Source: Pseudoflavitalea sp. G-6-1-2 (GTDB lineage Bacteria; Bacteroidota; Bacteroidia; Chitinophagales; Chitinophagaceae). Taken from it: DNA of 64,000 bases. How positions within the stretch are numbered: position 1 is the first letter of the stretch; each line of letters opens with the position of its first letter. Shown here in pieces: positions 12,084 through 21,553 of this stretch. The position numbers were made by a program, and so were the translations under genes. Under the pieces are notes generated by a model that made no database searches, had not been told where the DNA came from, and saw nothing but the letters and a program-made list of their open reading frames with translations. The stretch spans positions 930,001-994,000 of the forward strand of contig NZ_JABBGB010000003.1 in assembly GCF_012927185.1 (NCBI RefSeq). The letters are read 5' to 3'.

Positions 12084-15000
12084 CTAATTCACCAATCCGG
12101 TTTTTGTAAGCAGTTTTCTGTTTTTTCTGTTGTGGATGATGCGGAATACCAGCGAATAGATCACGGGAAGAATCAGCAGGGTAAGAATGGTGGCGGTTAC
12201 CAGTCCTCCGATCACTACAATGGCCAGTGGTTTCTGCGTTTCGGATCCGATGCCCGAAGAGACGGCTGCGGGCAGCAGTCCGATCATGGCCATGAGGGCT
12301 GTCATCACCACAGGTCGCACGCGCGAGAGCACTCCCTGCCTGATCGCATCCTCGAGGTGCAAGCCTTCTTCGAGATTTTTTCTGAATACGGAGATCAGTA
12401 TCACGCCATTCTGGATACATACACCAAACAGCGCAATGAATCCGATGCCTGCGGAGATGCTGAAATTGAAACCGGTGATATGCAAAGCGAGTATCCCTCC
12501 GATCAGTGCAAACGGTACATTGAGAATGGTGAGCACGGCATCTTTCGCATTGCCGAATGTGATGAAGAGTATGAGAAAGATGGCCAGCAAACAAATGGGT
12601 ACCACATGCGAAAGTGTTTTGCTGGCGCGTTGCTGATTTTCAAATTCTCCGTTCCAGGTCATTTTGTAGCCCGATGCCAGATGTACGCCGGCATTCACTT
12701 TTTGCTGTGCTTCTGCGATGGTGCTGCCGAGATCGCGTTCACGCACGGAGAACTTCACGGCGATGTACCGCATGTTGTTGTCGCGGAAAATAAAAGCAGG
12801 TCCGGTTAAAGTTTGTATCGAAGCGATTTCTTTCAGCGGCACTTTGGCCCCGTCGTTCGAGGGGACCATCAGGTTTTCGATGGCTTCCTGTGTGGCCCGG
12901 TATTCTTTCTGATAGCGAATACGTACATCGAATTTTCGTTCGCCTTCGTAGAGTTGTGTTGCGGCTTTACCTCCGATAGCCATCTCGATCACTGCATTGG
13001 CATCGGCGGTGTTAACGCCGTAGAAAGCCATCTTGCGCTGATCGAGTTCGATGCGGAATTCCGGTTGACCGAGATTGCGCAATACACCGAGGTCTTCGAT
13101 GCCACGAACTGTTTTGAGAATGTTCAGTACGCTGTCGGCCTTGTCGTCGAGCACCTGAAAATCTGAACCGAAAATCTTTACTGCAAGTGCAGCATTCACG
13201 CCTGCAACGGCTTCTTCCACATTGTCGCGGATCGGCTGGGAATAGTTGTAAATGATGCCGGGAAGTTTGCGCAGCTGCTGATCCATGGCATCGATCAGTT
13301 TGTCTTCACTGAGGCCTTTGGTCCAGTATTTTTTCGGTTTCAGATCTACCTGTATCTGCACGTTGAAGAATCCTTTTGGATCGGTACCATCGTTGGTTCT
13401 GCCAACCTGCGATAAAGTTTGTTTCACTTCAGGGAACTTAGCCAGAATATCGATCATTTTGTTGGAGATATTGTTGGCTTCTGAAAGTGAAACACTCATG
13501 GGCAATTCTGCTTCCACCCAGAGTGCGCCTTCATTCAGTTCGGGTAAAAATTCTGTTCCGAGGAATCTGGAAGAGAAGAAAGTAAGTGCCATGATCAGCA
13601 ATGCCACAAGCACACTTTTTTTCTGATTGCTGTACACGATGTTGAACAGCCTGCCAACACCACGTTCAAAGAACCGCACTATAGGATTATGTTTCTCTCT
13701 CACATTCTTTCGCAGTAAGATGCTGCTGAGTGCAGGCACCAGCGTGAGGGTAAGTATCAATGCGCCCAGCAGTGCAAAGCCCAGCGTGTAAGCCAGAGGT
13801 GAGAACATCTTTCCTTCCACTTTCTGAAATGCGAATATGGGAATGAGACAAGTGATGATAATGAGCTTGGAAAAGAAAATGGCCTTACCCATTTCAGTCC
13901 CCTTGTTCTTGAAGAGCCCCAGTTTGGCGAGGCGATTGAATTTCTCCATGCCTACTTCTCTGGCTTTGTGATCGAGCGCTACGAATAACCCTTCCACCAT
14001 CACCACCGCTCCATCGATGATAATGCCGAAGTCTACAGCGCCCATGGAGAGCAGGTTTGCGCTCATGCCTTTTATGCGCATGCATATGAAGGCGAACAAT
14101 AGCGAAAGTGGAATGATGATGCTTACGATCACTGTAGTGCGCCAGTCGGCCATGAACAGAAAAACGATCACCGTAACCAGAAAGATGCCTTCGATGAGAT
14201 TATGGATCACGGTTTCCTGTGCGTAATCCATCAGATTGGTGCGGTCGTAGAAAGTGCTGATCTTAACATCATCGGGAAGGATGGAGTTGTTGAGCTCATT
14301 CACTTTTTCCCGAACACGATCCAGCACTTCGCCGGGGTTCTCGCCTTTGCGCATAACGATGATACCTTCAATCACATCTTCCTGCTGATCCCGCGCAACC
14401 TGCCCCAGCCGTGGCTTTCCGGCTTCCACTACGGTAGCCACATTCTTCACCAGCAAGGGAACGCCGTTGACTTTATTGATGATGATGTTCTCGATATCCG
14501 CAATATCATTCAGCACACCAATGCCCCGAACAACGTAGGATTGGCCGTTTCTTTCGATCACATCTCCGCCTACATTGATATTGCTTTTCTGAATGGCCGA
14601 ATATACATCCAGCGAAGTGAGATTGTATTTGATCAGCAATTCAGGATTCACACTTACTTCAAAGATCTTTTCTTCACCTCCGAAACTGTTTACGTCTGCA
14701 ATGCCGGGAACGGATTTGAACTGCCTGTCGAGCACCCAGTTCTGAATGGTGGTGAGATCGCGGATGCTGCGTGTATTGCTTTTGAGTGTGTAGCGGAAGA
14801 TCTCGCCGGTGGGGCCATAGGGTGGTTGTACGTCGGGCTTTACGCCATCGGGAAGGTCTGCTCCTCCGAGCCGGCTGAGCACCTGCTGGCGGGCGAATGC
14901 ATCGTCTACATCATCGTCGAATATGATGCGTACGTAACAAAGTCCGAATGCGGAAGTAGTGCGCAGATTCGATTTCTTCTGCACCGAATTCAGTACCGTT

Positions 15001-15218
15001 TCTATGGGGATGGTTACAAATTTCTCCACTTCTTCTGCGCTTCTTCCCGGCCATTGTGCAATGATGATGATCTGTGTATTGGTAACATCCGGGAAAGTTT
15101 CGATGGGTGTTTCTTTGTAGCTCCAGATGCCGAGGGCTACCAGTACCGCCGTCATAAAAAAAACAAAATAGCGGTGGCGGAGTGAGAAGTATATGATTCG
15201 TTTGATAAACTTGTTCAT
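12084..15218 (-). CDS. czcA: CzcA/CusA family heavy-metal RND efflux pump
   Basis: This 1044-residue inner-membrane proton antiporter is the full length of HME-RND pumps: 12 transmembrane helices and two large periplasmic loops. The TM4 signature DFGIIIDGAVVMVE spans Asp396, Asp402 and Glu409. This corresponds to Asp402/Asp408/Glu415 of CzcA, the form found in Zn/Co/Cd pumps, whereas monovalent Cu/Ag pumps have a different segment. So divalent cation export is inferred. It lies 10 bp behind the adaptor gene in a run of sensor kinase, regulator, outer membrane factor, adaptor and pump. Confidence 0.93.
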   Translation of the reverse strand: MNKFIKRIIYFSLRHRYFVFFMTAVLVALGIWSYKETPIETFPDVTNTQIIIIAQWPGRSAEEVEKFVTIPIETVLNSVQKKSNLRTTSAFGLCYVRIIFDDDVDDAFARQQVLSRLGGADLPDGVKPDVQPPYGPTGEIFRYTLKSNTRSIRDLTTIQNWVLDRQFKSVPGIADVNSFGGEEKIFEVSVNPELLIKYNLTSLDVYSAIQKSNINVGGDVIERNGQSYVVRGIGVLNDIADIENIIINKVNGVPLLVKNVATVVEAGKPRLGQVARDQQEDVIEGIIVMRKGENPGEVLDRVREKVNELNNSILPDDVKISTFYDRTNLMDYAQETVIHNLIEGIFLVTVIVFLFMADWRTTVIVSIIIPLSLLFAFICMRIKGMSANLLSMGAVDFGIIIDGAVVMVEGLFVALDHKAREVGMEKFNRLAKLGLFKNKGTEMGKAIFFSKLIIITCLIPIFAFQKVEGKMFSPLAYTLGFALLGALILTLTLVPALSSILLRKNVREKHNPIVRFFERGVGRLFNIVYSNQKKSVLVALLIMALTFFSSRFLGTEFLPELNEGALWVEAELPMSVSLSEANNISNKMIDILAKFPEVKQTLSQVGRTNDGTDPKGFFNVQIQVDLKPKKYWTKGLSEDKLIDAMDQQLRKLPGIIYNYSQPIRDNVEEAVAGVNAALAVKIFGSDFQVLDDKADSVLNILKTVRGIEDLGVLRNLGQPEFRIELDQRKMAFYGVNTADANAVIEMAIGGKAATQLYEGERKFDVRIRYQKEYRATQEAIENLMVPSNDGAKVPLKEIASIQTLTGPAFIFRDNNMRYIAVKFSVRERDLGSTIAEAQQKVNAGVHLASGYKMTWNGEFENQQRASKTLSHVVPICLLAIFLILFITFGNAKDAVLTILNVPFALIGGILALHITGFNFSISAGIGFIALFGVCIQNGVILISVFRKNLEEGLHLEDAIRQGVLSRVRPVVMTALMAMIGLLPAAVSSGIGSETQKPLAIVVIGGLVTATILTLLILPVIYSLVFRIIHNRKNRKLLTKTGLVN

Positions 15219-15228
15219 GGCCGCGGGA

Positions 15229-16326
15229 TTAGTTTTCTCTCAATGCATTGAAAAGAAGTACCTGGTTTCTGGAAATGATCAGTTCTCCGGGGACCGCGCC
15301 ACCACTGAGATAGGTGCTGTTGCCTACTGTGCGCAGCACCTGCACTTCGCGTATGGCGAGATCGCATTTGCCGTGATAGACGATCACGTAGTTTTTTCCG
15401 TTATCGCTGATCACAGCTGTGCGTGGAATGGTGATGGCCTGCGCTCCCTGTTTGTTTTCGATGAGGATGTTCGCGAACATCTCAGGTTTGAGCAATAGTC
15501 CGCTGTTGGGGAGCCGCACTCTTATCTTCATCACTTTTGTTTCGGGATCGAGTTGCTGGCTGATCTTGTCCACTACGCCGTTGAAGGTGGAGTCGGGGTA
15601 GGCGAGTGTGGTTACTTTAGCTGTATATCCTTCTTTCACTTTTGCTATATCGCTTTCGTATACATTGGCCCAAACCCATACATCACTGATATCGCCTACG
15701 GTGAAGAGGTTGTCGTTGAAATCGCTTCTGATGAATGATCCCTGTCCGATCTTCTTCTCCACTACGTATCCGCTCATGGGAGCCTTCACCACGTATGTTC
15801 CGTTGGGACTGGTTTGTCCGCCTCCATTGATCGCAATCTGCTCCTGTATTTTTCTCGAAGCAGCCAGCGACTTGTTGTAGTTTTCCTTTGCTTCTACATA
15901 TTCTCTTTCACTGGCGATGCCATTTTTGTAGAGAGATTCCGCATTGTCGAGTTGCTTTTTTGCGATGGCGATATCATTGCCTGCCGTTGCCATGTCTGCG
16001 TAATTGCCTGCAACATCGGCGGACTTGATGATGGCGAGTGTTTGCCCCTTCGCCACTTTATCTCCGAGCGAAACATTCACCTGCAATACCTGTCCGCTGC
16101 TGAAAGGAAATACTTTCACTACTTTATTGTCGTCGAAACTGATCTCACCTGAAAGCTTCAGCTGGTCGTCGATACGGCTGGTTATCACCGTATCGATACT
16201 GATCATTTTTGCCAGTGAATCGCTGATGCAAACATCTTTGGGATCGCCGTCTTTGGGAGCATTCTCTTTGCAGCTTGCAAAGGAGATCACGGCAGAGATC
16301 AAAAGCAGTTGTATAAAGATTTTCAT
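15229..16326 (-). CDS. czcB: Efflux RND periplasmic adaptor lipoprotein (CzcB/CusB family)
   Basis: This 365-residue membrane fusion protein starts at the ATG at 16326. The signal sequence ends in VISFASC, making Cys19 the lipidation site. Then come the lipoyl/barrel-sandwich half (VSLGDKVAKGQTLAII), the helical hairpin (QLDNAESLYKNGIASEREY), the second lipoyl half (APMSGYVVEKKIGQGSF), the beta-barrel and the membrane-proximal domain. It would link the pump to the outer membrane factor. No His- or Met-rich metal-binding N-terminal extension is seen. It lies between the TolC-like gene (36 bp upstream) and czcA. Confidence 0.92.
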   Translation of the reverse strand: MKIFIQLLLISAVISFASCKENAPKDGDPKDVCISDSLAKMISIDTVITSRIDDQLKLSGEISFDDNKVVKVFPFSSGQVLQVNVSLGDKVAKGQTLAIIKSADVAGNYADMATAGNDIAIAKKQLDNAESLYKNGIASEREYVEAKENYNKSLAASRKIQEQIAINGGGQTSPNGTYVVKAPMSGYVVEKKIGQGSFIRSDFNDNLFTVGDISDVWVWANVYESDIAKVKEGYTAKVTTLAYPDSTFNGVVDKISQQLDPETKVMKIRVRLPNSGLLLKPEMFANILIENKQGAQAITIPRTAVISDNGKNYVIVYHGKCDLAIREVQVLRTVGNSTYLSGGAVPGELIISRNQVLLFNALREN

Positions 16327-16362: not shown

Positions 16363-17640
16363 CTATGGCAGAGCCACCACATTGGCGCCGGTACTGAAAT
16401 TCAACTCTGCTGCTGCATTTCTGAAAGCAGCGATTTGCTGTTGCTTTCTGATAAGCACCTCTTTGTACGAGTCGAAGAAGTCGATGAATTCTACGAGGCT
16501 TACCTGTCGCTGCCGGTAGCTGCTGATCATGTTCTGCAACAATTTGTCGAAGGGTTCATTGAGGGCGGGATCGGTTTGCTGCAAAAGATTGGCGGCAAGC
16601 AGGAATTTTCTGTAGGAAGCTGTTACATCCTGACTGATCTGGGTTTGTGCCTGTCTGATATTTAGGTCTGCCTGTTTGATGGATTCCTTTGCTGCGTTGA
16701 TATTTCCCTTGTTCTGATTGAGAATGGGTAATGGCACACTCAGCTGAATGCCCCAATAATGCGGCACATAACTGTTGAGGCGGTCATATGCTACGCCGGC
16801 TGTAACATCGGGGGCCACCAGCGATTTCTGATAGGCAAGATTGTGCTGCTGCTGCAACAGACTGGTATTGGCCAGCTGCAGATCGGGGCGATTGTTCATC
16901 GCAGTATCAATCAGATCTGCGAGAGGCGGTAAAGGCGGGATAGTAACTTTGATTTCAGCAGGTATGATGATGGTCTGATCGTTCATCTGCAACAGTACAT
17001 GAAGGTCTTTCTGAATATCGGCGATCTGTTGCTGCAATGCAGCCCGATCGTTCTGCAAAGAGAAGAGAAGCGCTTTGATGCGGAGGTTCTCTTTCTGCGA
17101 AATATTTCCTGCCTTGAATTCGGCATCCATCCCCTGTACCAGTTTTTGCATGGATTCCAGCTCGCGGGCATAAAGCTGATCTACTGCAGTAAGTTGCCCA
17201 AGGGTACTGAACTGTGTGGCAAGAGTGAATTTCAGATTGCGGAGCAGATCGCTGAACTGCTGACTGGCGCTGAGGGTAGCGTCTTCACTGAGTTTGATGA
17301 GTTTGTTTCTTTTGCCGGCGGTGCGGATCACCTGTTGAAGCTGGAGGTAGATCTCTCCGTAGGTTTGTCCGTTGGCGTTCTCTTTGCTGTGGCGAAAAAA
17401 TTTTCCGTCGTAGAGTGTCTGATCTGTGTTGAGGGTGGGGTTGTCCCAGTATCTGGCTTGTTGTTCCAGCGCTTTGCTGATGGAGATATTGTATTGTTGC
17501 GCAAGGAGGACAAGATTTTTCTGAAGGAAGATTTTCTCAGCTTCCGGCAGATTGAGTTTCAGTGTATCGGTTTGCGCCTGCAGCTTGCTGTAACCCATAA
17601 AAACCAACAGCAATGCAAGCCACCTTAATGTGAACTGCAT
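16363..17640 (-). CDS. czcC: TolC-family outer membrane factor (CzcC-like)
   Basis: This 425-residue protein has a signal peptide (about 1-22) followed by the two repeated OEP coiled-coil/beta-strand modules of TolC-like channels. The repeats are recognisable from NRPDLQLANTSLLQQQ near residue 260 and the alanine- and glutamine-rich helices. It would form the outer-membrane exit duct of the tripartite cation pump. It is the first efflux gene after the response regulator. The intergenic stretch before it carries four phased TTAA boxes, suggesting that it has its own regulated promoter. Confidence 0.9.
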   Translation of the reverse strand: MQFTLRWLALLLVFMGYSKLQAQTDTLKLNLPEAEKIFLQKNLVLLAQQYNISISKALEQQARYWDNPTLNTDQTLYDGKFFRHSKENANGQTYGEIYLQLQQVIRTAGKRNKLIKLSEDATLSASQQFSDLLRNLKFTLATQFSTLGQLTAVDQLYARELESMQKLVQGMDAEFKAGNISQKENLRIKALLFSLQNDRAALQQQIADIQKDLHVLLQMNDQTIIIPAEIKVTIPPLPPLADLIDTAMNNRPDLQLANTSLLQQQHNLAYQKSLVAPDVTAGVAYDRLNSYVPHYWGIQLSVPLPILNQNKGNINAAKESIKQADLNIRQAQTQISQDVTASYRKFLLAANLLQQTDPALNEPFDKLLQNMISSYRQRQVSLVEFIDFFDSYKEVLIRKQQQIAAFRNAAAELNFSTGANVVALP

Positions 17641-17693
17641 CTTAGTTAAGAATTTAGAAGTGATTGCTACTGCAAAGCTGGCAGCTTATTTGG

Positions 17694-17729
17694 TTAAGCC
17701 GTCATTAACCTCGGTTAATGCACCGTTAA
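17694..17729 (-). promoter_or_regulatory. Four phased TTAA boxes upstream of the efflux genes (candidate regulator operator)
   Basis: TTAA occurs at 17694, 17705, 17715 and 17726, with start-to-start spacings of 11, 10 and 11 bp. All boxes therefore face one side of the helix, as expected for an OmpR-family regulator bound as tandem dimers. The last copy overlaps the stop codon of the response regulator gene. The same spacing recurs at 19781-19805 and 21251-21275. A weak -7 candidate, TAAATTCT (17656-17649), lies 41 bp from the nearest box, the same distance as at the other two sites. Confidence 0.6.
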
Positions 17730-18424
17730 CTAACATTTGCGTTGAAGCGAAATCCAACGCCATGAATGGTTTCGAGAATTACGGAAGGGTCTGATTTAAA
17801 ATACTTGCGGAGTTTGGTCATGAATACGTCCATGCTTCTGCCGAGGAAATAATCGTCTTTTCCCCAAACGTTCAGCAGCACTTCTTCGCGCCTGAGAATG
17901 CGGTTGGCGTGTTCGCAGAGGAACTTCAGGAGGTCGGCTTCTTTCTGGGTGAGGGTGTGAATGTCGCCGGACGCATAGAGTTTGAGATCGGTATAGGAGA
18001 AACGCATATTGCCGATGCCGTATTCCTGCACCTGATCGGCCTGCAGCTTGCGTGTGCGGCGGATGAATACTTCCATGCGCAGCAGCAGCTCCTGCATGCT
18101 GAAGGGTTTTACAATGTAGTCGTCTGCGCCTGTGAGAAACCCTTTGATCTTGTCCTCTTCCATGGAACGCGCCGTGATAAAGAGAATGGGTACTACATCG
18201 CTTTGTTGTCTGATTTTCTTTGCAACAGTGAACCCGTCTTTGAAGGGCATCATCACATCGAGCAGACAGATATCCACCTGTGTTTTATCGAAATTGTCGA
18301 GGGCTGTTTGTCCATCTGCAAAAAGATGCACATCATATCCTGCTTCTGTGAGGTTGTCTTTTATTACATAGCCGAGTGAGAGATCATCTTCGGCCAACAG
18401 TACTTTGATCTTTTTGGGTGCCAT
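17726..18424 (-). CDS. OmpR-family response regulator
   Basis: This 232-residue regulator has a receiver domain with acidic pocket EDD (12-14), phosphoacceptor Asp56 in ICLLDVMMP, the switch Thr in LFITAR, and Lys in YIVKPF. A winged-helix DNA-binding domain occupies the C-terminal ~100 residues (LTQKEADLLKFL, GRSMDVFMTKLRKYF). It lies 11 bp after the sensor kinase gene and upstream of the efflux genes, so it very likely controls them. The phased TTAA boxes next to it are the obvious candidate target. Confidence 0.93.
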   Translation of the reverse strand: MAPKKIKVLLAEDDLSLGYVIKDNLTEAGYDVHLFADGQTALDNFDKTQVDICLLDVMMPFKDGFTVAKKIRQQSDVVPILFITARSMEEDKIKGFLTGADDYIVKPFSMQELLLRMEVFIRRTRKLQADQVQEYGIGNMRFSYTDLKLYASGDIHTLTQKEADLLKFLCEHANRILRREEVLLNVWGKDDYFLGRSMDVFMTKLRKYFKSDPSVILETIHGVGFRFNANVS

Positions 18425-18435
18425 AGGTCCGTTGT

Positions 18436-19701
18436 TTAGTTTCCTGGCAACAGCAGTCTGAATTCGGTTCCGATACCCGGAATGCTGTTGATGTCGATGC
18501 TGCCATGATGGGCATCGATGATTCGTTTAACAAAGCTCAGCCCCAATCCGAAGCCTTTTACATTATGCACATCGCCGGTAGGTACGCGATAGAATTTCTC
18601 GAACAGTTTCTTATGGTATTTCTTATCGATACCTATCCCGTTGTCTTTTACTGAAATAAATATATGATCATTTTCTTTACCGGCACTCACAATTATGCGG
18701 GGATTGGGCGAGTATTTAAGGGCGTTCTCCAGCAGGTTCACAATGGCCAGCTCCAGGTGGGCCCTGTCGGCCAGCAGCTCATAGTTGTTGTCTTCGGGCA
18801 ATTGCAGTTCCAGCACGGCTTTCTTCTCCTGTGCCAGCGGTTGAATTTTGGTAACGGCCTCTTCGATAATGCCGTTAACGGTAACCGGGGTACGCTGAAT
18901 CGGTAATTCCTTTCTTTCGGAAGTGGCTACCTGCAATAAACGTTCTACCTGCTTCTGCAGGTGCATCGTTTGGTTCTGAATAATGGTAGCATACTGATGC
19001 AGCCGGTCTGGTTGTTTTATGATCTTCTCCTGCAACAATACATCCGACGATATCTTCATCACCGCCAGCGGTGTTTTGAATTCGTGCGTGAAGTTGTTCA
19101 CGAAATCTTTCTGCACTTCGGCCAGAAATTTCTGTCGATAGAAATAGAAAAGACTTACCGCCAGTCCGATCAACACTACAAACAATACCACACTACTGAT
19201 AAACCAGAAATTCATCTGTTGCAGCACATACCTGTTTCTGTGCGGAAAGTACAGCAATACATAATCGTACTGGCGTTCGAATACGGGGAATGGCGATACC
19301 ACGGGATCATATCGTGCAGCGGCAGCAGCAACATATTCCCGCGATGTATATTTCTTTTCCCTGGAACTGTAAAAACCTACATGAGCATCGGTGAGCACAT
19401 CAAAATCGTTCAGTTCATCTTTGAGATACCAAACGAGTGAATCTTTCTCATATACGCCACTGGTGCGGAAGAGAAAGTAGTCAGGCGAAGGGTGCTCGAT
19501 AATATCCTGGAGGTGATTCACCGGAGAGTCCATGATGTTCACATCTTCGTACAATCCTCTGATGCTCTTCACCACATTGATGTTGAAGGTTTTCTGCTCA
19601 AGTGAATAGATCATATTGAGCCAGTAAAGCTGAACCCCCACTATCACAATGATGAGCAGGGTAGCTGTAAGCACAATCCATTTCAGGGTTTTAGAACGCA
19701 T
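18436..19701 (-). CDS. Sensor histidine kinase of the metal-efflux locus
   Basis: This 421-residue membrane kinase has TM1 at about 8-28, a periplasmic sensor of about 135 residues, TM2 at about 166-187 and no obvious HAMP. The dimerisation/phosphoacceptor helix has His206 in FTHEFKTPL, followed by the N-box NLLENALKYS, G1 DNGIGID and G2 GFGLGLSF. The sensor loop lacks an evident Cys/His metal cluster. The start at 19701 was preferred over an in-frame start 39 bp upstream because a -7-like CAAATTTG (19732-19725) lies between them. It precedes the regulator gene by 11 bp. Confidence 0.9.
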   Translation of the reverse strand: MRSKTLKWIVLTATLLIIVIVGVQLYWLNMIYSLEQKTFNINVVKSIRGLYEDVNIMDSPVNHLQDIIEHPSPDYFLFRTSGVYEKDSLVWYLKDELNDFDVLTDAHVGFYSSREKKYTSREYVAAAAARYDPVVSPFPVFERQYDYVLLYFPHRNRYVLQQMNFWFISSVVLFVVLIGLAVSLFYFYRQKFLAEVQKDFVNNFTHEFKTPLAVMKISSDVLLQEKIIKQPDRLHQYATIIQNQTMHLQKQVERLLQVATSERKELPIQRTPVTVNGIIEEAVTKIQPLAQEKKAVLELQLPEDNNYELLADRAHLELAIVNLLENALKYSPNPRIIVSAGKENDHIFISVKDNGIGIDKKYHKKLFEKFYRVPTGDVHNVKGFGLGLSFVKRIIDAHHGSIDINSIPGIGTEFRLLLPGN

Positions 19702-19780
19702 ACCATCTATATAATCGACTATGACAAATTTGCTGCGCATTATGGATAATACATTTTTTTACTGCTCAAACAACATATCC

Positions 19781-19858
19781 TTAACAGCTGTTAACCGCCG
19801 GTTAAGGGTGGCTTCAAATAGCAATAGGGCAGGTTTATTGAATAGATTTAGGATGTAA
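19781..19858 (+). promoter_or_regulatory. TTAA-N6-TTAA-N7-TTAA operator and core promoter of small secreted protein 1
   Basis: TTAA boxes begin at 19781, 19791 and 19802. The core TTTATTGAATAGATTTAGGA starts at 19834, with a -7-like TAGATTTA at 19843-19850, 41 bp after the start of the third box. Box spacing, box-to-core distance and most core bases are the same as at 21251-21328. The site lies between this gene and the divergent sensor kinase gene, so it may also autoregulate the kinase. Confidence 0.65.
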
Positions 19859-19887
19859 ATGTTTTTTTGAAATCAAACACCACTATC

Positions 19888-20076
19888 ATGAAAAAGGTAT
19901 TAATGGCTGCTACCCTGGTGATTGCTCTGGCAGGTTTTGCTACTGCACAAACCAAGCCTGCAGCTGATCAGAAGAAGCCTGCGAAAAAAGAAGCTAAAGC
20001 TCCGGCAAAGGAAACTCCTGCAAAGGATTCTACCACCAAGCCAGCAAAGAAACCACACGCCAAAAAAGGGGCGTAA
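19888..20076 (+). CDS. Small secreted Lys/Ala/Pro-rich protein 1
   Basis: This 62-residue product starts at 19888 (MKKVLMAATLV). It has a standard signal peptide ending at about ATAQ, leaving a mature part of about 40 residues made almost only of Lys, Ala, Pro, Thr and Glu/Asp with a final KPHAKKGA. The mature peptide would be unstructured and strongly basic. The composition recalls enterobacterial acid-shock protein Asr, but homology cannot be claimed. Its promoter carries the same operator as small protein 3, and it faces the metal-sensor kinase. A buffering or cation-competition role in the periplasm is inference. Confidence 0.75.
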   Translation: MKKVLMAATLVIALAGFATAQTKPAADQKKPAKKEAKAPAKETPAKDSTTKPAKKPHAKKGA

Positions 20077-20124
20077 TCTCTGAGATGTTTTAAACGTTTG
20101 AGTATCGGTATGTTTTGGTTTTTT

Positions 20125-20155
20125 TTGCGCCGCTCCCTTGCGGAGCGGCTTTTTA
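20125..20155 (+). terminator. Terminator after small secreted protein 1
   Basis: GCCGCTCC (20129-20136) and GGAGCGGC (20142-20149) form a perfect stem followed by TTTTT. Confidence 0.8.
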
Positions 20156-20207
20156 AGAATTAAGTTTACTCTATCATATTTCTCCCAACTCTCTTAAAAA
20201 TTAAGGT

Positions 20208-20531
20208 ATGAAAAAGATCATGTTAGCCCTCGCATTGCTGCTTTCTCTGTCTGTTATGAGTTATGCTCAGACAGCTGCACCTGCAAAGCCTCAGCAGAAA
20301 GAGCAGAAAAAGAAAGCAGAAAAAGCTGAAAAATCAGCGAAGGACGCCGCTGCAGCAGCACCGGCAAAAGCAGCTCCTGCAAAGGAAGCAACAGCACCTG
20401 CCGGAACCCATGTGAAAAAAGATGGCACTCCCGATAAACGCTACAAAGAGAACAAAGGAGCTCCAACAGTTCACGTAAAAAAAGACGGTACTCCCGATAA
20501 ACGTTACAAAGAAAATAAGAAAAAGAGCTAA
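20208..20531 (+). CDS. Small secreted Lys/Ala-rich protein 2 with duplicated 16-residue motif
   Basis: This 107-residue protein has a signal peptide ending near SYAQ, then a Lys/Glu/Ala-rich low-complexity stretch, then two exact copies of HVKKDGTPDKRYKENK separated by GAPT, and ends in KKS. The motif is polar, positively charged and not recognisable as a catalytic domain. The phased TTAA operator of its two neighbours is absent upstream, so it may be regulated differently. Its terminator lies inside the 3' end of the convergent DUF1003 gene. The function is unknown. Confidence 0.75.
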   Translation: MKKIMLALALLLSLSVMSYAQTAAPAKPQQKEQKKKAEKAEKSAKDAAAAAPAKAAPAKEATAPAGTHVKKDGTPDKRYKENKGAPTVHVKKDGTPDKRYKENKKKS

Positions 20532-20550
20532 GGTTGGTTTTAATTAGCGT

Positions 20551-21171
20551 CTATGCTGTGCCGCCTGCATCAGGCGGCATTTTTTTTGACCCCTCTTCCG
20601 CAGTTTTCTTATTCGCTTCTTTCAGCTTCGCTTCGTCTCTGATCAGCGACTGCAATAACCTAATCTGATCTGCCTGCGCCTCCATCAGTTTTTTGAATTG
20701 CTCTTCGAGCAGCAGATCCATTTTCTGATGCAATGTTCTGATTTCGATCTCTGCCTTCAGATTCACGATATAATCGTTCTCATTCCGCTTACGGTCTTTT
20801 TCTTCCTGCCGGTTCTGACTCATCATAATCACCGGCGCCTGTATTGCAGCCAGACAAGATAATACCAGGTTCAGCAAAATAAAGGGAAAGGGATCGAATC
20901 TTTTTCCTTCCGGCAATTGCATATTGATGATGATCCATCCGATCAGTATCACCGCAAATGAAATGATGAATTTCCAGCTGCCTCCGAACCTCGCCACCTG
21001 ATCGGCGATGCGTTGGCCCGTCGTCAATTTTTCGGACGAAGGTTTTTCGATATTCTGCAGTATCAACTTTTCCTGTTCCACAGCCTGGCATACTATCTCA
21101 TGCAATTTTTTCAGATGATCATTCTCCGTATTCATCAGATCATGTATATACCTGCCTTTTTGTGGATTCAT
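20551..21171 (-). CDS. DUF1003 family membrane protein
   Basis: This 206-residue protein has a central pair of transmembrane helices (FIISFAVILIGWIIIN and PFILLNLVLSCLAAIQAPVI) joined by a short LPEGKRFDPFP loop, followed by the family motif MMSQNRQEEKDR. A long coiled-coil C-terminus then precedes an acidic/Lys tail. This is the DUF1003 arrangement, of unknown biochemical function. The start was set at MNPQKG (21171). A further in-frame ATG lies 12 codons downstream. It is divergent from small secreted protein 3, sharing the region with the 21251 operator. Confidence 0.85.
   Translation of the reverse strand: MNPQKGRYIHDLMNTENDHLKKLHEIVCQAVEQEKLILQNIEKPSSEKLTTGQRIADQVARFGGSWKFIISFAVILIGWIIINMQLPEGKRFDPFPFILLNLVLSCLAAIQAPVIMMSQNRQEEKDRKRNENDYIVNLKAEIEIRTLHQKMDLLLEEQFKKLMEAQADQIRLLQSLIRDEAKLKEANKKTAEEGSKKMPPDAGGTA
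20559..20588 (+). terminator. Terminator after small secreted protein 2, inside the DUF1003 coding end
   Basis: TGCCGCCTG (20559-20567) pairs with CAGGCGGCA (20571-20579) and is followed by eight Ts. The same bases encode the last codons of the convergent DUF1003 gene. Confidence 0.8.
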
Positions 21172-21250
21172 ACTGCAATAATTTGTACTGAAGTTACAGA
21201 TTCGGCAGCATACCTGAACAGGCCCGTCTGATGGGCCTTTTAGCCAATGG

Positions 21251-21328
21251 TTAACGGTTGTTAAGCCCCGGTTAAGCAGCCGCCAAATTATTAATCGGCT
21301 ACATTTATTGAATAGCTTTACGACGTAA
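21251..21328 (+). promoter_or_regulatory. TTAA-N6-TTAA-N7-TTAA operator and core promoter of small secreted protein 3
   Basis: TTAA boxes begin at 21251, 21261 and 21272. The core TTTATTGAATAGCTTTACGA starts at 21304, with TAGCTTTA at 21313-21320, again 41 bp after the start of the third box. The layout is identical to 19781-19858, while the intervening bases differ, which argues for constraint on the boxes and the core. Confidence 0.65.
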
Positions 21329-21358: not shown

Positions 21359-21553
21359 ATGAAAAAGTTATTGATCGTTGCAGGATTTGTATTAGCGATG
21401 ACAGGATTGGCCGCAGCCGCTCAGACAGAGCCTACAGCTGCCACCACAAAAACAGAAAAAACAGCCATGGCAAAAGGACAAAAACATGGCAAAAAACATC
21501 ATCACCATAAACAACATGCAGCAAAGCCTGCACCCGCAAAAAAAATGAATTAG
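21359..21553 (+). CDS. Small secreted His/Lys-rich protein 3
   Basis: This 64-residue product has a signal peptide ending near AAAQ. The mature peptide of about 42 residues is Lys/Thr/Ala-rich and contains a His-Lys block, GKKHHHHKQH, then KPAPAKK. Four adjacent histidines in a periplasmic peptide beside a divalent-cation efflux locus suggest metal binding, but this is inference. It shares operator and core promoter with small protein 1 but only signal-peptide-level similarity in sequence. It is followed by a good terminator. Confidence 0.75.
   Translation: MKKLLIVAGFVLAMTGLAAAAQTEPTAATTKTEKTAMAKGQKHGKKHHHHKQHAAKPAPAKKMN

Follow-up and report, generated by a model that had tools for sequence, protein, structure and literature searches.

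The window, the 64-kb stretch of DNA analysed here, holds a two-component system placed between the genes of a czcCBA-type efflux pump and several genes for small secreted proteins. The features that are needed for the following are:

12084..15218, minus strand: CzcA/CusA-family RND pump (TIGR00914, 989 bits against a cut-off of 701)
15229..16326, minus strand: czcB-type adaptor, its start taken at the ATG and not at the listed TTG
16363..17640, minus strand: czcC-type outer membrane efflux gene (OEP)
17673..17680, minus strand: likely -7 box of czcC, CAGCTTTG, 13 bp past the last TTAA box, a spacing seen in relatives
17694..17729, minus strand: czcC operator, four TTAA boxes with spacers 7-6-7 (11-10-11 bp); four-box sites precede czcC in relatives
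17726..18424, minus strand: OmpR/PhoB-type response regulator (Response_reg and Trans_reg_C), the proposed binder
18436..19701, minus strand: sensor histidine kinase, start placed at the second Met (19701), not at 19740
19725..19732, minus strand: CAAATTTG, probable -7 box for the kinase operon; a GCAAATTTG-like element lies before the kinase in many relatives
19781..19805, plus strand: operator 1, TTAA-N6-TTAA-N7-TTAA, in the gap that separates small protein 1 from the kinase operon
19843..19850, plus strand: -7 box of small protein 1, TAGATTTA, assigned from the exact core and from relatives
19888..20076, plus strand: small secreted basic protein 1, 62 aa, 24% Lys, pI 10.3
20118..20160, plus strand: strong hairpin with a T run (-17.7 kcal/mol), which probably ends transcription downstream of small protein 1
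20208..20531, plus strand: small secreted protein 2; it contains two repeats that end in KKDGTPDKRYKENK
20551..21171, minus strand: gene for a DUF1003 protein, with operator 2 between it and the divergent gene of small protein 3
21240..21275, plus strand: operator 2, TTAG-N7-TTAA-N6-TTAA-N7-TTAA, upstream of small protein 3
21313..21320, plus strand: -7 box of small protein 3, TAGCTTTA, assigned on the same grounds as that of small protein 1
21359..21553, plus strand: small secreted Lys/His-rich protein 3, 64 aa, with an HHHH run

The last box of the czcC operator shares bases with the response regulator's stop codon, and a degenerate box (ACAA) lies at 19770, 11 bp upstream of operator 1. The kinase probably starts at the second Met, since the -7 element conserved in relatives falls inside the longer open reading frame. 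Operator 2 possibly serves the DUF1003 gene as well. In this locus small protein 2 lacks its own TTAA pair and sits behind the terminator-like hairpin; in other loci, proteins of its type are found directly behind the operator.

The pattern TTAA-N6-TTAA-N7-TTAA was found at 19781-19805 and 21251-21275 (both plus strand), where the original prediction had placed it, and the four phased boxes described for 17694-17729 start at 17694, 17705, 17715 and 17726. This four-box site contributes two further exact matches (17694-17718, minus strand; 17705-17729, plus strand), so that the window holds four, as compared with a chance expectation of 0.01 and with none of 100 shuffles that reached four or more. 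Throughout the 6.1-Mb genome we counted five exact matches versus two for the reversed-pattern control, four of the five inside one 3.6-kb stretch. The fifth match (C1:605332) has more AT-rich spacers and was judged to be a chance occurrence. Relaxed searches of this genome all remained below their controls, with 60 matches versus 70 when one mismatch was allowed, which is background, 49 versus 65 in the three-mismatch search and 40 versus 60 for the box combined with the -7 element. Therefore, a large regulon was dropped, and only three sites stand out. It had also been argued that the boxes are kept while the bases between them differ. The boxes are indeed present, but this carries no weight by itself because the exact pattern fixes the TTAA letters. 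Independent evidence comes from the -7 element and the ATG distances, for which the sites were not selected, from the periodicity before kinase orthologues that were not selected for boxes, and from the co-occurrence with the kinase.

The core promoter TTTATTGAATAGNTTTA occurs exactly at only two places in the genome, 19834-19850 and 21304-21320 of the window, and stands at an equal offset from operators 1 and 2, as had been predicted. The distance of 41 bp between the third box and TAGnTTTA was reproduced as a start-to-start distance (19843 versus 19802, 21313 versus 21272) and equals 37 bp from the box end. Counting only sites followed by an MK-starting ORF of <130 aa with its ATG 60-125 bp away, we obtained 22 sites in 20 loci, in which the ATG lies 66-89 bp after box 3 and the unselected -7 box is conserved. 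At the kinase promoters the gap between box and -7 element is exactly 33 bp in 22 of 52 cases, and at czcC, where 13 of 17 genes near the system have a box pair, it is exactly 13 bp in seven of the 13 and 33-35 bp in three, with no strict -7 match in the other three. Many of the loci with equal spacing are close relatives of one another. We had considered a common 41-bp geometry for czcC as well, with TAAATTCT at that offset; this candidate was dropped, as relatives conserve CAnnTTTG at 13 bp instead. Of the single architecture proposed for all targets, the TTAA boxes are present at all three, whereas the distance from box to -7 element at czcC is 13 bp and not 37 bp. The czcC promoter, as far as its sequence tells, seems not to use the 41-bp offset.

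In a survey of 294 Chitinophagaceae genomes, in which a stricter form of the operator was searched and kinase-positive meant a full-length match with an E value up to 1e-90, the operator was present in 43 of 69 kinase-positive genomes (62 sites, control 0) and in 8 of 225 others (9 sites, control 10). Kinase matches that covered the catalytic part only or were weaker than 1e-70 were left out of this co-occurrence count. By genus, the operator occurred in 23 of 28 kinase-positive genera versus 6 of 73 others, with a P value of 1e-12 that is less overstated by relatedness than the genome-level P values. Outside the Chitinophagaceae the operator was not enriched (8 sites, control 27). The strict three-box pattern is absent from the remaining 26 of the 69 kinase-positive genomes; 17 of these were looked at, and 13 carry a two-box form at the kinase while four carry none. 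Likewise, the exact three-box site is absent from 25 of the 61 kinase loci that were fetched. The region upstream of the kinase was compared in 60 of these 61 loci, as the contig of L124 starts at the kinase. TTAA boxes 10 or 11 bp apart were found in 52 of the 60 (shuffles: mean 5.2, maximum 13) and no such pair in eight; pairs at 11 bp numbered 74, with 2.7 expected. For the small basic secreted ORFs, three of 39 candidates lay far from the kinase and were removed as apparently spurious; of the 36 that remained, 33 had a TTAA pair within 200 bp upstream, compared with 98 of 535 long ORFs. Several pattern matches away from the kinase had no sensible target. Other targets in relatives comprise secreted proteins and a GH18-deacetylase-GT2 fusion, which by appearance have envelope-like functions. 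In this genome the fusion gave only 13 partial matches, the best with 37% over part of the GT2 domain; its candidacy as a target is confined to relatives.

Taken from sequence evidence, it is quite likely that the two-component system regulates itself and, via TTAA half-sites, a small regulon for envelope protection. The kinase would sense periplasmic stress and phosphorylate the OmpR/PhoB-type regulator, dimers of which would bind the half-sites every 10-11 bp and activate, rather than repress, Bacteroidota sigma-A type promoters. Binding at the three operators of the window, one upstream of both the kinase operon and small protein 1, one before small protein 3 and one before czcCBA, would control the regulator's own operon and switch on the other targets. 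The products would be signal-peptide proteins rich in Lys, Ala, His and Pro, which may act as Asr-like periplasmic buffers or chaperones, together with the CzcCBA efflux pump. The proposal of a single regulon that unites the sensor kinase with the pump and the small basic proteins agrees with the boxes before all three, with the modification that the pump is optional and the small proteins are the commoner partner.

The regulator has the receiver and the winged-helix Trans_reg_C domain of the OmpR/PhoB family, an adjacent kinase and tandem half-sites about 10-11 bp apart upstream of its putative targets, and much of its DNA-recognition region is conserved across 60 orthologues. Together with the operator-kinase co-occurrence and the boxes before kinase, small proteins and czcC, this supports the predicted OmpR-family type of site. 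Published boxes of PmrA (BasR) of Salmonella and Klebsiella, another OmpR/PhoB-type regulator, are built from similar half-sites: the PmrA box CTTAAG-N5-NTTAAT corresponds to TTAA-N7-TTAA and the Klebsiella box2 TTTAAT-N4-TTTAAG to TTAA-N6-TTAA. However, PmrA has two half-sites versus two to four here, and the targets named there serve antimicrobial-peptide resistance. In addition, the regulator scored 82 bits against PmrA in a PDB search, behind at least 26 other chains, and 106.4 bits against the PmrA/BasR model NF007928 (cut-off 330). Among the matches listed (25 of 94) it stayed below the cut-off of each NCBIfam model, the best being RprY of the RprXY system of Bacteroides and Porphyromonas (NF051850, 255.1 bits, cut-off 370). 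One RprY paper, when checked, contained none of the terms motif, consensus, binding site and operator.

As to the signal, the regulon may respond to acid or to envelope stress in general, in the manner of RstA and asr, with the pump as a lineage-specific addition; this is a tentative reading that falls somewhat short of an even chance. Small proteins 1-3 have the composition of mature E. coli Asr, namely Lys, Ala, Thr, Pro and His with almost no aromatic or aliphatic residues, although His makes up only 2% of proteins 1 and 2; judged by composition, they are probably disordered. Asr is also the best NCBIfam match of small protein 3 (NF033636, E 0.0043, 17.8 bits, below the cut-off of 50), whereas this model is not among the matches listed for small proteins 1 and 2. 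None of the small secreted proteins reached a Pfam cut-off. The likeness to Asr is one of composition only, since, out of 500 shuffles each, 263 (protein 1), 346 (protein 2) and 133 (protein 3) reached the residue-order score. The E. coli RstBA-asr system has an OmpR-type regulator and tandem 4-bp boxes 10 bp apart, about 100 bp before a small disordered periplasmic protein rich in Lys, Ala and His; in the E. coli sequence the RstA box TACA-N6-TACA stands 117 bp before the asr ATG. In contrast to the present system, those boxes are TACA and not TTAA, czcCBA has no part, and RstA is described as being under PhoPQ while the kinase operon here carries its own boxes. The further, envelope-like targets in relatives agree with an acid or general envelope-stress signal, and so do the ten charged residues conserved in the periplasmic sensor part (at least 75% of 61 kinases), of which seven are acidic (E35, E52, D53, D87, E96, D99, D105). 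No clear relative of the sensor emerged from a fold search.

A metal regulon of the SilE/PcoE type, in which the kinase would sense Zn, Co, Cd, Ni, Cu or Ag, His-containing proteins would act as sponges and CzcCBA would export the metal, appears unlikely. CzcA does belong to a heavy-metal family, and pump and operator are adjacent here and in some relatives. In 18 of the 61 loci czcA or czcC is close to the system, and the operator also stands beside czcC or czcA at L174, L180 and L214, which were found by the pattern alone. However, 43 of the 61 fetched stretches, among them those of the congeneric L102 and L103, hold no czc match; five of the 61 lack the regulator or end <4 kb beyond it. The SilRS-SilE-SilCFBA and PcoE systems likewise combine a two-component system, an RND metal pump and a small disordered His-containing periplasmic protein, SilE being a Met/His-rich Ag sponge with HxxM motifs. 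Small protein 3 and its relatives have His runs, but it is Lys, not His or Met, that recurs most constantly among the small proteins, with 0-2% His in 4 of 22, and by eye the HxxM motifs known from SilE are not conserved. Moreover, the sensor part has no His or Cys conserved at 75% in the 61 kinases, and regulator and kinase are far below the heavy-metal CzcRS/CusRS models TIGR01387 and TIGR01386 (136.7 versus 279.2 and 111.8 versus 292.55 bits).

Genomes of this kind usually hold many OmpR-type regulators. The boxes could accordingly belong to another regulator, or to a nucleoid or RNA-polymerase element, with an indirect link to the kinase. We regard this as improbable in view of the tight 10/11-bp phasing, of an operator that tracks the kinase by genome and by genus with no enrichment outside the family, and of the boxes at the kinase's own promoter. 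It is very improbable that the small ORFs encode peptide precursors that are later modified (MNIO-type RiPPs, bufferin-like) and not free disordered proteins. The best NCBIfam match of small protein 1 is the chryseobasin precursor (NF050124, E 0.0041, 17.7 bits, below the cut-off of 50), which speaks for this reading. Against it, Cys is absent from 20 of the 22 operator-associated small proteins, and a scan of nine proteins of the locus recognised no modification enzyme.

Our literature searches, which covered few subscription papers, and those partly, returned no description of the TTAA operator or the regulon, nor any of the four repeat words of small protein 2. The TTAA-box system may represent an undescribed, family-wide envelope-stress regulon of the Chitinophagaceae, with a disordered Lys-rich core output as an independently evolved analogue of Asr, effectors that differ by lineage (either CzcCBA or a polysaccharide synthase of the GH18-deacetylase-glycosyltransferase kind) and three preferred operator-promoter spacings of 13, 33 and 37 bp; for this full proposal we see the chances as evenly balanced.

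To our knowledge, few two-component regulons have been mapped in the group of this bacterium. The present analysis pairs an operator defined by sequence with a candidate regulator, and it gives these small secreted proteins, for which Pfam offers no match above cut-off, a link to a testable function. The question of metal or acid becomes testable by a single reporter. If the outputs are Asr-like, two phyla would have come to the same solution, a tandem-box OmpR-type regulator that drives a basic, disordered periplasmic protein, with no visible shared ancestry of the proteins.

In our study the three-box pattern TTAA-N6-TTAA-N7-TTAA of the original prediction was confirmed at its positions, with four matches in the window compared to 0.01 expected. 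The proposed search of the whole 6.1-Mb genome returned five exact matches, and two with the reversed pattern used as control. The near-identical core promoter at an equal offset was found as well: it occurs exactly at two places in the genome (19834-19850 and 21304-21320), with its -7 box starting 41 bp after box 3 starts. The four boxes located between regulator and czc genes start, as described, at 17694, 17705, 17715 and 17726. The features are:

12084-15218, minus strand, czcA, a CzcA-family pump
16363-17640, minus strand, czcC
17694-17729, operator 3, between regulator and czcC
17726-18424, minus strand, regulator with Response_reg and Trans_reg_C domains
18436-19701, minus strand, kinase with HisKA and HATPase_c domains
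19781-19805, operator 1, separating the kinase operon (minus) from small protein 1 (plus)
19888-20076, plus strand, small protein 1
20208-20531, plus strand, small protein 2
20551-21171, minus strand, DUF1003 gene
21240-21275, operator 2, between the DUF1003 gene and small protein 3
21359-21553, plus strand, small protein 3

When 294 genomes of the family were searched with the kinase, 121 had a match with E up to 1e-60; a near full-length match with E up to 1e-70 was present in 92. The eight best named matches of a separate search belonged to Pseudoflavitalea, Longitalea and Niastella (66-84%). We fetched 60 kinase loci of relatives (L numbers), one per genome (G numbers) except for two from G126, which together with the window makes 61 loci. 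At least one exact three-box site was present in 36 of these and none in 25. Boxes ahead of the kinase itself suggest autoregulation: within 250 bp before this gene, TTAA pairs were spaced by 11 bp 74 times (2.7 expected), by 10 bp 30 times (2.7 expected) and by 21 bp 30 times (2.8 expected). A 10/11-bp pair preceded the kinase in 52 of 60 loci (shuffles: mean 5.2, maximum 13), and the remaining eight belong to the more distant loci with 37-46% identity. Exactly 33 bp separated the last pair from a [TC]AnnTTT[GA] element in 22 of the 52 loci, 13 of these 22 being close relatives (L104-L116); the strict element was absent in 17 of the 52. For the window, L102 and L103 this gap is 48 bp if strict boxes only are counted, and it would be 37 bp with a degenerate box (TTGT) inside it. 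The conserved -7 element of the kinase promoter lies within the listed ORF, therefore the kinase probably starts at 19701.

The stricter pattern TTAACNNNNGTTAANNNNNNGTTAA gave 71 sites in 51 of the 294 genomes, compared to 10 sites for the control. With the kinase called at E up to 1e-90, it occurred in 43/69 genomes with the kinase versus 8/225 others (Fisher 2e-25), or 62 sites versus 9 (control 0 versus 10), and counted by genus in 23/28 versus 6/73 (1e-12). At thresholds of 1e-70 and 1e-100 the counts were 44/92 versus 7/202 and 41/56 versus 10/238 genomes, respectively. In G268, a kinase-negative, fragmented genome of the same genus as the window, sites adjoin czcC and precede a homologue of small protein 3. 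Among the 26 kinase-positive genomes lacking the strict pattern, a two-box form preceded the kinase in 13 of 17 loci examined. Across 295 genomes of the class the operator was not enriched (8 sites outside genome G000 versus 27 in the control); therefore, it is not general to the class.

Moreover, ORFs of 61-97 aa with a signal peptide-like N-terminus, a pI of 10.0-11.2 and 18-25% lysine follow 22 operator sites, which are distributed over 20 loci; these ORFs were selected for an MK start, a length under 130 aa and an ATG 60-125 bp away. The operator lies 66-89 bp from the ATG, 79-83 bp in 12 of the 22. A -7 box TAgcTTTA, which was not selected for, is conserved at 37 bp in the 14 plus-oriented sites, and the eight inverted sites carry CAACTTAG-like letters at that position. 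An independent scan identified 39 small basic secreted ORFs in 33 of 61 loci. A TTAA pair lay upstream of 33 of 36 such ORFs near the kinase versus 98 of 535 long ORFs; regulated genes are included in this background. The exceptions are a His-rich protein in L118 and two KKDGT-repeat proteins, namely small protein 2 and a protein of L105, both downstream of another small protein. KKDGT-type proteins directly follow three boxes in L128-L130 and box pairs in L110, L117, L118, L120 and L121. The gene for the 61-aa secreted protein of L118, which is very rich in histidine, lies beside that for a Lys-rich one, some 0.6 kb ahead of the kinase. Small proteins 1-3 reached no Pfam cut-off (matches with E up to 1 considered) and every NCBIfam match was below cut-off, the top one for small protein 2 being the YidC N-terminal model (E 0.0003). 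Tandem-repeat proteins of the KKDGTPDKRYKENK type, to which small protein 2 belongs, were found again in several fetched loci; they stayed under every Pfam cut-off, and a literature text search gave no mention of them.

The DUF1003 gene and small protein 3 diverge across operator 2. A DUF1003 relative lies close to the kinase in 16 other stretches among 68 searched (some genomes present twice) and the divergent pair recurs in L215; operator 2 may therefore serve both directions. Of the 61 loci, 18 encode CzcA or CzcC close to the system; L102 to L105, from the same genus as the window, are not among them. A TTAA pair preceded czcC in 13 of 17 cases and was missing in four; its gap to the -7 box was 13 bp in seven loci, three of them close relatives, and 33-35 bp in three, while three had no strict -7 box. 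With the pattern as the sole criterion, sites were found next to czcA (L180) and, on a short contig, next to czcC (L174); in both cases the gene lies on the divergent side of the site. Together with the boxes before czcC this argues that the pump, where present, would belong to the regulon.

Sigma-A in a flavobacterium has been described to use a -7 box TAnnTTTG at -12 to -5. With this placement the end of box 3 would fall near -50 for the small genes; for czcC it would fall near -26, the box there covering the -33 region. At the small genes, no clear -33 element was visible by eye in the stretch that separates box 3 from the -7 box. OmpR-family practice points to activation and, together with this promoter geometry, leads us to infer that the regulator activates. 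Between the two membrane helices of the sensor, the charged residues E35, K45, R48, E52, D53, D87, E96, D99, D105 and R155 are each kept by at least 75% of 61 kinases, and no His or Cys in the sensor part reaches this conservation. This speaks, weakly, for a sensor of acid or cations rather than for a metal site based on His. The sensor model (pLDDT 76) is mixed alpha-beta, of uncertain class.

PmrA boxes are also described as TTAA half-sites at both spacings (N6, N7). RstA boxes are given as TACA-N6-TACA, and in E. coli such a box lies 117 bp before asr. The mature small proteins 1-3 resemble Asr in composition but not in residue order, as the score of this comparison was reached by 263, 346 and 133 of 500 shuffles, respectively. 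Judged by sequence, they would therefore be analogues of Asr and not homologues.

Further candidate targets were observed. In genus g100, three genomes (L162, L163 and L212) share a conserved TTAACAGCGGTTAAATAGCTGTTAA site 50 bp upstream of a gene for a 483-485 aa secreted protein, which points either to another target or to another regulator. Several off-locus matches that by our reading lack a sensible target (L173, L187, L191, L213, L218-L220) may be due to chance. Boxes precede a GH18-polysaccharide deacetylase-GT2 fusion of about 1150 aa in L125 (domains scanned) and L110; by eye, ORFs with a similar N-terminal part follow boxes in L181 and, divergently, in L222-L225. This fusion may be a regulated exopolysaccharide synthase. 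In L178, L221 and L226 the operator is followed by secreted proteins of 186-194 aa. In L221 (1502, minus) and L226 (1469, plus) it lies 82 bp upstream of the gene (186-187 aa), which is divergent from a gene resembling, by eye, arginine decarboxylase; the L226 protein reached no Pfam cut-off.

The regulatory architecture is thus real and conserved. The comparison supports the predicted single regulon of kinase, pump and small proteins, and the emphasis on metals was not supported. The fusion and the 186-194 aa secreted proteins as putative targets suggest a regulon engaged in envelope work.
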